Source: Neobacillus sp. FSL H8-0543 (lineage in GTDB: Bacteria > Bacillota > Bacilli > Bacillales > Cytobacillaceae). From it: DNA of 64,000 nt. The notes beneath the pieces are model-generated. The model had not been told where the DNA came from. It did not search any database and was given only the letters and a program-made list of their open reading frames with translations. The stretch lies in contig NZ_CP151943.1 in the NCBI RefSeq assembly GCF_038592905.1, forward strand, positions 4,104,501 to 4,168,500, given 5' to 3'. This document shows, piece by piece, positions 4,448 through 7,115 of the stretch (position 1 is the first letter of the stretch; each line of letters starts with the position of its first letter). The position numbers and the translations under genes are program-made.

Positions 4448-4510
4448 AGCTGCCAAAAGAGGGAACTGCAAAAACAAATATTAATTAGAAAAATACAATT
4501 TCAAGGAAAT

Positions 4511-4554
4511 AAAAAAAGGGTGAGCAATTATTAAAAGTTGCTCACTCTTTTTTT
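4511..4554 (+). terminator. Terminator after sigG
   Basis: A 17-bp stem with one G:T pair (4511-4527 with 4538-4554) closes over a 10-nt loop and ends in a T tract. It closes the sporulation sigma cluster. Confidence 0.9.
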
Positions 4555-4616
4555 GCTCTTTTTTTGGCTGTGTTAAATAAGTCAGTTGATTTCGTTTAAG
4601 TAATCATCGAAAGTGA

Positions 4617-4754
4617 AATAAGCGGAGATTTTCCGGTTATTTGCAAAAAGGAGCTCGTTTCGTGGAATATAAGGGGAGATTATCCGGTTATGCTATGTAA
4701 AATCCCCCATCTTAATGTTTTTTATATAAATAGGCGGAATCTCTCCGTCTATTT
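4617..4754. repeat. Cluster of three 25-27-bp imperfect palindromic repeats
   Basis: Three related units lie at about 4617-4642, 4668-4691 and 4728-4754. Each has the form A/T-rich end, GCGGA or a variant, a short AT centre, TCCG, A/T-rich end. A fourth copy lies at 6415-6441 beyond the IS; copies three and four agree at about 24 of 27 positions. The intervals of roughly 51 and 60 nt and the degenerate units argue against CRISPR. I do not recognise a named family. Confidence 0.7.
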
Positions 4755-4801
4755 CTTACGATTAGTCAAGTGTATTTTAGTTAATTCATTTATGTTTTTT
4801 T

Positions 4802-4847
4802 ATTTAGATGTATTTGGGAGGGGTACCCCTCCCAAATACATCTAAAT
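4802..4847. repeat. 46-bp perfect palindrome
   Basis: Two 23-nt arms meet at GGGGTACCCC with no spacer and no mismatch; the centre lies between 4824 and 4825. T runs flank it on both sides on the plus strand. It could act as a plus-strand terminator (TTTTT follows at 4847), or it may be a mobile or REP-like remnant beside the IS110 element. Confidence 0.85.
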
Positions 4848-4921
4848 TTTTCCATAACGAAAAGACCTCACGATATTCTTTTTTTCGAAAGGTCAGTGTG
4901 CTATAGTGAATATAAACTTGG

Positions 4922-6145
4922 CTACGATTTCTGAGCTGGTAGTGCGGACTCATAATCGTAAAGTATGCCGTGTGTCAGTAACTGAAACATCACTTTCAGA
5001 AACTTATTGATACACGCCACAATCGCGACCTTATGAGGCTTTCTCTGAGGTTGCGTTTTTAATTTGTAATAATAGTCTACTAAATGATTAGGTTTTCCTT
5101 TTGCCATAAGCATCGTACAAATCATAAAAAATAAAATCTTCCGTAGCTTCTTATTTCCTCGTTTATTAATACGATCACGGTATTGTGTATTGCCAGATTG
5201 ATAGCGCATAATATCGATGCCAACGTAAGCGTTCAGTTGTTTCGCGTTTTTAAATCGGCGAATATCACCTAGTTCGCCAATAAGTCTGCATGCTGTTGTA
5301 TCACCAATCCCTGGAAAGGAGCGTAATACGGTATATTCCTTTCTTCCTTCAGACATCATAACCATCTGTTTCACAAGCTGGTCTTTCTTTTCCATTAAAT
5401 CCGCAATACGTCGGGCATAATCGCCTACTTGATTACAACGAATATCCGTTGGTTCAATGGCAGGATATGAATTTTTCGCAGCTTCTAATAACACGATGGC
5501 TTTTTTCTCTGCACGTTCTAGTGAAAGATTTTTACGTGTATTACTTTTTAAACGATTTTTAATAATTGTCTTTGACTGAGCTAATAAAAGTGCTGGATGT
5601 GGATACAATTGCACAAAATTTAAAAATAGCGCTGAACTCGGTGTAATAAGTCGTTCCAACTCTGGAAATGAAAGATGTAAAATGGCATGCATACGATTGC
5701 GTAAAAGAATAAGTTCTTCTTCAATCTCGTCATAATAACGAGTAATCGCCCGCATCTGTTCATAATATTCATTCTGCACATACGTCGTTTCACGTTCTAA
5801 TTTAAAGTGGGTTTTCGCTAACTCATGGGCATCGCTAATATCGGTTTTGTTTCGACGCATTGAAGCCATTTGTAGGTTCGCTTCAAGCGGGTTCATGCGA
5901 CAGTATGTATGTCCGTGATCCCGTAGAAACTTTTCAACTGATTTTGAATAGACACCCGTCGCCTCAAATACGATTTCAGGGGCTTGTCCATCAAGAGCCG
6001 TTATTTCCTTAATACGAAGGTGTAGCTGCTCAAAATCAATGCGTGTATGATACAATTCCCCTTCAAATTCACATTGTCTATAGCCATCATAAATGGCAAT
6101 GGTACTTTTCCCTTTACTGACATCAAGAGAGATGACATGTTTCAT
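4922..6145 (-). CDS. IS110-family transposase (DEDD recombinase)
   Basis: This enzyme catalyses excision and insertion of the element, in this family guided by a bridge RNA. The 407-aa protein has an N-terminal RuvC-like DEDD domain: D8 (SLDVSKG), E61 (VFEATGVYS), D102 and D105 (NKTDISDAHELA). A central helical stretch of about residues 115-260 is followed by the C-terminal Transposase_20 domain (SFPGIGDTTACRLIGELGD, about 276-294) with a candidate catalytic Ser317 in MRYQSGNTQYRDR. The frame is intact with all key residues present, so the copy may be active. A ribosome site AAAGGAG lies upstream of the ATG. It is a single gene on the reverse strand between sigG and ylmC. Confidence 0.95.
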   Translation of the reverse strand: MKHVISLDVSKGKSTIAIYDGYRQCEFEGELYHTRIDFEQLHLRIKEITALDGQAPEIVFEATGVYSKSVEKFLRDHGHTYCRMNPLEANLQMASMRRNKTDISDAHELAKTHFKLERETTYVQNEYYEQMRAITRYYDEIEEELILLRNRMHAILHLSFPELERLITPSSALFLNFVQLYPHPALLLAQSKTIIKNRLKSNTRKNLSLERAEKKAIVLLEAAKNSYPAIEPTDIRCNQVGDYARRIADLMEKKDQLVKQMVMMSEGRKEYTVLRSFPGIGDTTACRLIGELGDIRRFKNAKQLNAYVGIDIMRYQSGNTQYRDRINKRGNKKLRKILFFMICTMLMAKGKPNHLVDYYYKLKTQPQRKPHKVAIVACINKFLKVMFQLLTHGILYDYESALPAQKS

Positions 6146-6173
6146 ATAAATATTCTCCTTTTATAACCAATCA

Positions 6174-6329
6174 TAGAAGTCTTCACAGTGCCTTATCGAT
6201 TCCATTTTCTTATACACGATCTCTAAGACCCAACATACTAAACTGATTCAAACAAGGGTGTGAAGTTGGCCTGTTTAAATACGGACTCTTACATGGTCCT
6301 ATAGACGGATCGACCTTCCTTCACTTCTA
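6174..6329 (-). ncRNA. Candidate bridge RNA in the IS110 5' non-coding end
   Basis: On the reverse strand, ahead of the transposase, the region is closed by complementary heptamers (6323-6329 with 6174-6180). It contains a hairpin with a GGAC/GTCC stem (about 6271-6303) and a larger stem-loop with a CCAAC/GTTGG stem (6265-6269 with 6230-6234). The 3' strand of the larger loop holds a decamer (6232-6241 on the plus strand) whose exact reverse complement lies at the element's outer end, 6380-6389. Bridge RNAs in IS110 leaders are established knowledge; this particular assignment is inference from position and complementarity. Confidence 0.45.
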
Positions 6330-6333
6330 CTAT

Positions 6334-6376
6334 AAAAAAATAGTAGCACAAACCATGGCCTTGGTTTGTGCTACTA
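6334..6376 (-). terminator. Reverse-strand terminator at the outer edge of the IS
   Basis: A perfect 15-bp stem (6341-6355 with 6362-6376) has a 6-nt loop. On the reverse strand it is followed by seven T (complement of 6334-6340), giving a rho-independent shape. It lies upstream of the candidate bridge RNA and would block outside transcription from reaching the transposase, a common IS design. Confidence 0.7.
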
Positions 6377-6414
6377 ATGTTAGTATGTTTATACAATTTT
6401 TAATGCTTTTTACC

Positions 6415-6441
6415 AAATAAGCGGAATTTCTCTGTCTATTT
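6415..6441. repeat. Fourth copy of the GCGGA short palindromic repeat
   Basis: This unit is nearly identical (about 24/27) to the copy at 4728-4754 on the far side of the IS110 element. It shows that the short-repeat cluster extends on both flanks of the insertion. Confidence 0.65.
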
Positions 6442-6534
6442 AGATTCTTAAAATTAAAAAAATTAACAATAACCTTTAACATAGCCATTTTTTTAAGATG
6501 TGTAGAGATAAGTGCATTATTTAATTAATAACTC

Positions 6535-6666
6535 TGTTGATTTGCGCGGAAGGCACGCAGACTCCTGCGGGAGTACGGGGCTGGGGAGACCCCACAGGCG
6601 CTTCAGCGCCGAGGAGGCTCCCCGGCACGCCCGCGGAAAGCGAAGTGCATGGAGTACAAATCAACA
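6535..6666 (+). repeat. GC-rich dispersed intergenic repeat, full-length copy 1
   Basis: The 132-bp element has perfect 10-bp terminal inverted repeats (TGTTGATTTG / CAAATCAACA) and several internal hairpins: ACTCC/GGAGT, GGCGC/GCGCC, and GGGGAG with CTCCCC. It is strikingly GC-rich against AT-rich flanks. Related copies lie at 29716-29911 (opposite orientation, interrupted) and 35027-35081 (internally deleted). I recall similar elements scattered in Bacillaceae genomes. An apparent 63-codon ORF across it is an artefact of composition. Confidence 0.85.
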
Positions 6667-6845
6667 AACATGTTTCAAAGACCTTAAATCAATGCCGTTA
6701 TAATTTATTAACGTAGTGAATTATTAAAGTTATTGGATTATATAAGAGGCTGTCCTAAAAGGCAGCTTTATTTTTTCTGATTAAGATAAAATCCCAAGTT
6801 AAGACATATATTTTCTATAGCATAGAAAAGTGGGAGTGAGAGAGT

Positions 6846-7115
6846 ATGGTAAAAATTTCTGAATTTCAAATAAAGGATGTTGTTAATGTTTCTGACGGCA
6901 AAAGGCTGGGGAATATTGGAGATATCGAAATAAATTTAACTACAGGAAAGATTGATGCAGTCGTAATTACTGGTGCAGGAAAAGTTCTAGGTTTTTTTGG
7001 AAGGGAGGAAGATATTGTTATCCCATGGAAAAATATTATTAAAATTGGTCAAGATGTAATTCTTGTAAGGTACAAAGGATTTGAGGAAAGAGTAACGGAG
7101 GAAATTGAAGGGTAA
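6846..7115 (+). CDS. ylmC: YlmC/YmxH family sporulation protein, PRC-barrel type
   Basis: This small 89-aa protein has a single PRC-barrel-like domain (KDVVNVSDGKRLGNIGDIEI, then GKVLGFFGREEDIVIPW), the same length and pattern as B. subtilis YlmC. It belongs to a set conserved in endospore formers; the biochemical function is unknown. GTGGGAGTGAG upstream gives a usable ribosome site for the ATG. An inverted repeat follows, so it is probably transcribed alone. In B. subtilis it also sits between the sigG region and ylmD, so its place is conserved even though an IS and repeats have entered just upstream. Confidence 0.88.
   Translation: MVKISEFQIKDVVNVSDGKRLGNIGDIEINLTTGKIDAVVITGAGKVLGFFGREEDIVIPWKNIIKIGQDVILVRYKGFEERVTEEIEG

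Follow-up and report, generated by a model that had tools for sequence, protein, structure and literature searches.

The window analyzed here, a 64,000-nt stretch of the genome of Neobacillus sp. FSL H8-0543, carries an IS110-type element of ∼1,634 bp on the minus strand (positions 4755–6388). The element encodes a DEDD recombinase of 407 aa (4922–6145, minus strand) that matches PF01548 (4.9e-19), PF02371 (4.1e-24), and NF033542 (211 bits, cut-off 140), as well as the protein chains of IS621 and ISCro4. It thus has the DEDD N-terminal domain and the Transposase_20 domain of the IS110 family in the broad sense. Residues D8, E61, D102, D105, S317, and G318, which we take to be the catalytic residues, are invariant across 12 homologues. 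Two weak matches, in recombinase residues 138–260 and 240–381, were also recorded, one to Nop (21.9 bits, below the cut-off of 25.4) and one to the TIGR-Tas endonuclease (47.2 bits, cut-off 100); both agree with the link between IS110 and Nop described in the part of PMC12045711 available to us.

The ends of the element were set by copy comparison and by uninterrupted target sites. Across the three genomic copies, the sequence is the same from 4755 (CTTACGATTAG...) to 6387 (...GTTAGTATG) and continues with a common TTT, beyond which the copies diverge. Locus L004 is the same repeat without an insertion and reads CCGTCTATTTAGGCTATTTTTAATGC across the site, and six more loci also have the repeat uninterrupted, as CCGTCTAT-TT-AGGCTATTTTTAATGC on the plus strand. 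The core that flanks the element is TT (AA on the minus strand), at 4753–4754 and 6389–6390; which T of 6388–6390 is the core was assigned from relatives and is therefore the probable choice. A preliminary description of this DNA had placed the far end at 4905, with TATA as the core and GTGAA as the left donor guide. The strings themselves are in place (TATA at 4902–4905 and 6390–6393, GTGAA at 4906–4910), but 4905 lies inside the element because the three copies and the uninterrupted repeat of L004 place the end at 4755. Among the three copies, TATA at 6390 is found only in that of the window, the other two having TAGG and TAAG, and its pairing with the TATA/GTGAA at 4902–4910 is coincidental.

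The left-end terminus, ACATACTAAC (6379–6388, minus strand), would be the right donor half, and the right-end terminus, TTGACTAATCGTAAG (4755–4769, minus strand), assigned from copies and relatives, would be the left donor half; the latter contains a −35 hexamer, TTGACT, at 4764–4769. The noncoding region upstream of the gene is 243 nt (6146–6388) versus 167 nt downstream (4755–4921). A perfect palindrome of 46 nt lies within the right end (4802–4847), and a palindrome of different sequence lies at the matching position in L028, L030, and L031. By eye, a 6-bp ATTAGT is present in both ends of the window copy and absent from relatives such as those ending AGAGGTAAG. The target belongs to a repeat, of which the 12-mer TAAATAGACGGA has 21 exact occurrences in the genome and six times forms a pair with a spacing of 51 nt. 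Allowing at most one mismatch gave 80 places versus 58 for the reversed pattern, and because of this background only the 21 exact places are taken, as an indication.

Two homologue searches supplied the relatives that, with the window element, are referred to as clade A. The first was positive in 23 of 200 genomes (own genome included), with 30 loci kept, and the second, in GTDB species genomes, contributed 80 loci out of 250 confirmed, giving 110 loci in all, some of which are one place found twice. Three pairs of loci (L025/L068, L033/L105, and L037/L111) have matching flanks, each linking a locus of the window's genus to one from a named Neobacillus, in line with the host being Neobacillus. 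The left end was located in 99 of the 110 by a motif search with three errors allowed and reads AACATACTAA in 96 of these (exceptions L059, L062, and L129); right ends mostly read TTGACTnnnnGTA(A/G)G-AA. The 99 leaders comprise 64 distinct sequences, 63 of which were aligned.

The leader contains a predicted bridge RNA with two loop arms (6172–6333, minus strand). It matches the covariance model R1, of which the window sequence is itself a row, with 168.2 bits (E 6.3e-36). In alignment A2, which holds 58 leaders, 29 consensus pairs were obtained, 13 of them with pair-keeping changes on both sides, in keeping with the earlier suggestion that the leader looks like a bridge RNA. For example, in the hairpin GGACC...GAGTCC that separates the two target guides (6283–6299, minus strand; A2 pairs 40–43/54–57), one pair changes from C-G to U-A in 27 of the 58 leaders. 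The CCAAC/GTTGG stem that had been proposed to enclose the loop (6230–6234 with 6265–6269) fared less well, as all of its pairs form in 25 of 58 leaders (239 of 290 cells) and it is missing from the consensus fold; GTTGG is kept in 56 leaders and CCAAC in 15. Folding of the single sequence 6146–6331, also proposed earlier, was no better than shuffles (z −0.29), and a search of 4500–7000 against Rfam gave seven matches, every one under the gathering score. A search with R1 recovered exactly the three copies of the own genome, and 24 of the 120 genomes searched, own included, had matches. Four R1 matches (G160:C22, G013:C41, G015:C5:235765, and G120:C14) have no recombinase match at 1e-60 and might represent copies that are decayed or gene-less.

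Between the GGTCG stem and the GGACC hairpin, the target loop has a 5′ strand that is usually 11 nt long and whose sequence is the reverse complement of the right flank adjoining the core. In the window element, the predicted right target guide TCCGTCTAT (6301–6309, minus strand) pairs at 9 of 9 positions with the right target half (4744–4752, TCCGTCTAT on the plus strand). Scoring left out 30 of the 110 loci, which lacked a left end or leader, lacked a right end, or had a short or masked right flank; the remaining 80 loci represent 74 distinct insertions, and L054, which has a shortened loop, was left unscored. With G-U counted as a pair and the best of three registers taken, the mean for the 73 insertions was 8.1 of 9, with 8–9 of 9 in 58 and 9 of 9 in 43. 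When one insertion was taken for each of 42 distinct guides, the mean was 8.05 versus 5.81 ± 0.16 after permutation (maximum of 6.33 in 5000), a result that is not a probability because the guides are related, many of them having AGCCTCT in common. Fifteen insertions fell below 8 of 9 (L036, L037, L042, L051, L052, L056, L070, L074, L077, L078, L092, L101, L113, L115, and L118). By eye, allowing a 2-base slip in the A run makes L037, L092, L113, and L118 exact, which is not the case for the other weak rows; the right end of L070 came from a 3-mismatch match and is probably false.

The predicted left target guide (TATTTAAACA, 6272–6281, minus strand) is found on the 3′ strand of the target loop. 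The left target flank of the window insertion (6391–6400, plus strand) was assigned from sequence and copy comparison. Compared with the left flank reading into the core, 32 distinct guides gave 99 matches at positions 4–8 versus 55.2 ± 5.3 (0/5000), with the left flank cut by a contig end in five loci. The opposite, IS621-like assignment gave no signal in clade A, neither for the 5′ strand against the left target (2.79 versus 2.99 ± 0.12 permuted) nor for the 3′ strand against the right target (3.47 versus 3.41 ± 0.10 permuted). At the level of sequence, both target guides co-vary with the target across homologues, and clade A offers a well-sampled natural guide-target code with 42 distinct right guides.

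For the donor loop, the preliminary description had pointed to a decamer (AACATACTAA, 6232–6241) with its exact reverse complement TTAGTATGTT at 6380–6389 and had read it as a donor guide for the leader-side end. The match exceeds chance, as dinucleotide shuffling of the leader produced a leader/edge match of at least 10 nt in 20 of 2000 cases when the edge was 30 nt and in 10 of 2000 when it was 14 nt. The decamer falls within the predicted right donor guide TTTAGTATGTT (6232–6242, minus strand), on the 5′ strand of the donor loop, which in homologues is TTTAGTATGTT or TTTnAGTATGTT, the reverse complement of the left end. Paired changes support this assignment in L062 (end AACAGACTAA, RNA TTAGTCTGTT) and L129 (end AACATATTAA, RNA TTAATATGTT), and unpaired changes run counter to it in L059 (end altered, RNA the same) and L101 (RNA altered, end the same). 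On the 3′ strand there is TAAGAAA or a close variant of it, oriented as in the right end. TAAGAAA within TAAGAAAA (6205–6212, minus strand), which is located 3′ of the right donor guide and matches GTAAGAAA at the true right end, is the likelier left donor guide; here one paired change, GTAGGAA with AGGAAA, is common to one subclade (L041, L042, L043, L051, and L052). Because the donor guides are nearly fixed, the evidence for them is thinner than that for the target guides. GTAAGA in the target-loop hairpin was also considered as the left donor guide and was rejected, since that loop varies between relatives.

As assigned from these comparisons, both loops of clade A present the right guide and then the left guide, in an RNA that is located upstream of the gene. 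The target loop, the target repeat, and this reversed order had been missed in the preliminary description. In the parts of the sources available to us, IS621 has a left guide followed by a right guide in both loops and a CT core (PMC11208160, PMC11208158), the ISEc21 seekRNA has the bottom-strand match first (PMC11187229), and the tested IS1111 seekRNAs are located downstream and have the top-strand (right) match first (PMC11187229). The window element resembles IS621 in its DEDD recombinase, an RNA in the left end, a target loop followed by a donor loop, repeats as targets, longer 5′-strand and shorter 3′-strand guides, and a promoter at the joined ends, which is a prediction here; it differs in guide order and in its TT/AA core. 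Likewise, ISEc21 has an upstream noncoding region and a circle-junction promoter (again predicted here) and the opposite guide order. With the IS1111 group, the window element has in common that the right match precedes the left, whereas the RNA of that group lies downstream, its transposase is 330–350 aa, and its subterminal inverted repeats are 7–17 bp, compared with an upstream RNA, 407 aa, and 6 bp by eye (PMC11187229; PMC11208160). The element therefore combines the longer upstream noncoding region of the IS110 group with the right-first order of the IS1111 group. We found no description of a right-first order with an upstream RNA in the searched literature, whose figures or supplements could draw a flipped order for another element, and the words "reversed," "flipped," and "swapped" do not occur in the text of PMC11208160.

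Order controls were run with the same definitions. ISEc21 (L133) gave left at 101 and right at 127, the published order, although this control is imperfect: its left guide CACAGCGA matches CATAGCGA at 7 of 8 positions, and an exact search for at least 6 nt in that record found no left match. An IS1111-type element (L160, 341 aa, 12-bp inverted repeat) gave right at 96 and left at 120, also as published and less cleanly, as a second right-target 8-mer occurs at 187, on the other side.

A further comparison is provided by clade B (L135 and L137–L159), from the same genus, whose recombinase is about 30% identical to that of the window and whose upstream leader has the left-first order. All pieces were obtained from 18 of 24 loci (one without a right end, four without a left end, and one masked). 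In 16 distinct rows, the 5′ strand scored 7.38 against the left target versus 6.07 ± 0.30 permuted (0/5000), and no signal was seen for this strand against the right target (3.31 versus 3.28). Model R1, which was built from clade A alone, matched 5 of 5 submitted clade B leaders along its full 162 positions (E 9.4e-6 to 8.8e-4) as well as the L. plantarum locus L134 (E 1.9e-8); no match was found in four clade C loci or in seven other loci tested. The full-length match in clade B, together with the opposite guide orders, implies that homologous loop strands face opposite DNA sides. In the RNA frame, the donor junctions look alike by eye (GTTAGTATG-TT-CTTAC in clade A and ATTAGCTGG-TT-CGTAA in clade B). 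A tree joined clade A with L134 at 99/99 and these with clade B at 99/99, with long branches elsewhere, and a smaller tree gave the same two joins at 85/90 and 97/96. The target guides of L134 are right-first, with AAGAAGTTT present in the leader and the right flank as a 9-nt inverted repeat and, by eye, the left guide CCTTAAAAC as in the left flank.

In clade C (L216–L219, L222, and L223–L252), too, the leader is upstream and the target guides are right-first. From its 35 loci, three were missed, three were repeats, and four had no parsed loop. The 5′ strand scored 6.08 against the right target versus 5.69 ± 0.10 permuted (1/1000, 25 rows), the 3′ strand 6.65 against the left target versus 6.13 ± 0.12 (0/1000, 20 rows), and the 5′ strand showed a small excess against the left target (4.30 versus 4.10 ± 0.06, 3/1000). 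Its position in the tree, near the IS1111-type rows, is weak (69/88).

We consider it highly probable that the leader encodes a bridge RNA with right-first guides in both loops, expressed from a circle-junction promoter and directing an RNA-guided exchange. The element would excise as a circle, and its joined ends would create a promoter, TTGACT-N17-TAACAT, that drives the leader. In the sequence, this promoter exists only once the ends are joined: the −10-like TAACAT (6377–6382, minus strand) lies 17 nt from TTGACT when the ends of the presumed circle are joined with AAA, in agreement with the reports on ISEc21 and IS621 (PMC11187229; PMC11208160, PMC11208158, in the parts available to us). 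The leader would then fold into the bridge RNA, in which one internal loop would pair with the target repeat on both strands next to the AA core and the second would pair with the two element ends. The two duplexes would be exchanged at the core by the DEDD recombinase. The ends, the target, the conserved RNA fold, and the co-variation of both target guides are documented at the level of sequence, as is a noncoding RNA with target guides and, on thinner evidence, donor guides of the kind expected in the IS110 family; transcription, binding, and strand exchange are presumed by analogy with IS621. Weighing against this explanation are the 15 of 73 weak insertions, the relatedness of the guides, the two donor rows each way, and the imperfect order controls. 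Also against it, a terminator-like hairpin followed by a T run (6341–6376, minus strand), in a region conserved across the 63 aligned leaders, separates the bridge RNA from the presumed start at the junction promoter. The 3′ arm of this hairpin, CTACTAT, could alternatively pair with ATAGTAG (6327–6333, minus strand) at the 5′ end of the bridge RNA.

That same hairpin, and a single-sequence fold no better than shuffles, could suggest that the leader is merely a regulatory or terminator structure and that the complementarities are chance or codon-free repeats. We regard this as scarcely credible, since the guides track the target over 42 distinct guides, which strongly disfavors it, and paired changes occur in both loop arms. 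It is also very unlikely that the RNA is an ordinary IS621-type bridge RNA, left then right, with the reversed order an artefact of strand or naming. The upstream leader and the two loops are indeed like those of IS621, yet the same definitions agree with the published guide order of ISEc21 and, though less cleanly, with that of the IS1111 type in L160, they return left-first in clade B, and clade A gives no signal when scored as left-first.

A less improbable, though still doubtful, alternative is that the order goes back to an IS1111-like ancestor in which the RNA gene moved to an upstream position. The right-first order is that of IS1111 (PMC11187229, in the part available to us), a short subterminal ATTAGT is present in both ends of the window copy, and clade C lies near the IS1111-type rows, weakly. 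Against this, clade A is joined at 99/99 to clade B, which is left-first and has a homologous RNA in the same position, and the window recombinase is 407 aa versus the 330–350 aa given there for IS1111. The simplest account is instead an inversion of the cassette, because the geometry in the RNA frame is that of IS621, with a long 5′-strand guide, a shorter 3′-strand guide, and the core at the guide 3′ end. The RNA-recombinase cassette would have been inverted between the ends relative to IS621 and sister clade B, or the donor junction inverted in the circle, leaving the reaction unchanged. The inversion is a proposal, and the likeness of the donor junctions in the RNA frame was judged by eye.

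Guide order is probably independent of the position of the RNA gene, the cassette having been turned round between the ends in sister clades A and B, while the RNA, the enzyme, and the RNA-frame donor junction (TTAGnnnG-TT-CnTA, by eye) stayed alike. If this is true, IS110-type machines are reversible cassettes with at least three natural arrangements (upstream/left-first, upstream/right-first, and downstream/right-first), which suggests that one RNA-guided machine can carry elements of this kind in either orientation. In the part of PMC11187229 available to us, the IS110 and IS1111 groups are set apart by both RNA position and guide order, and the mechanics of target selection may differ between them. 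An upstream RNA with the other order, beside a usual-order sister clade with a homologous RNA, separates position from order and makes the question of target selection testable in paired natural systems. In practice, a guide finder that presumes left-then-right would mis-assign targets in clade A, which is present in many genera of Bacilli.

Several observations on related elements and their targets were made along the way. Multi-copy IS110-type groups with a longer noncoding region downstream were found at L196–L215, L220, and L221 (genomes G130, G005, G122, and G128), with open frames of 394–461 aa and a downstream noncoding region of 386 nt in L196 and about 524 nt in L201. There are seven such groups, two each in G130, G005, and G122 (both of the latter reaching contig ends) and one in G128, with copies that have repeat flanks in common. 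Hairpins are enriched at clade A insertions, 19 of 67 of which start in a perfect inverted repeat no shorter than 8 nt versus 34 of 1333 control positions, and the insertions appear to prefer the 5′ foot of hairpins (right-target flanks). A general rule that the targets are terminators was rejected, as hairpins are a minority and a looser terminator test gave 13 of 67 versus 32 of 334. Finally, L102, L104, L109, and L112 are inserted at CCCGCGGA-AA and appear to use a GC-rich repeat, and a GC-rich repeat that resembles their target, GCCCGCGGAAAGCGAAG, adjoins the window element at 6601–6650.
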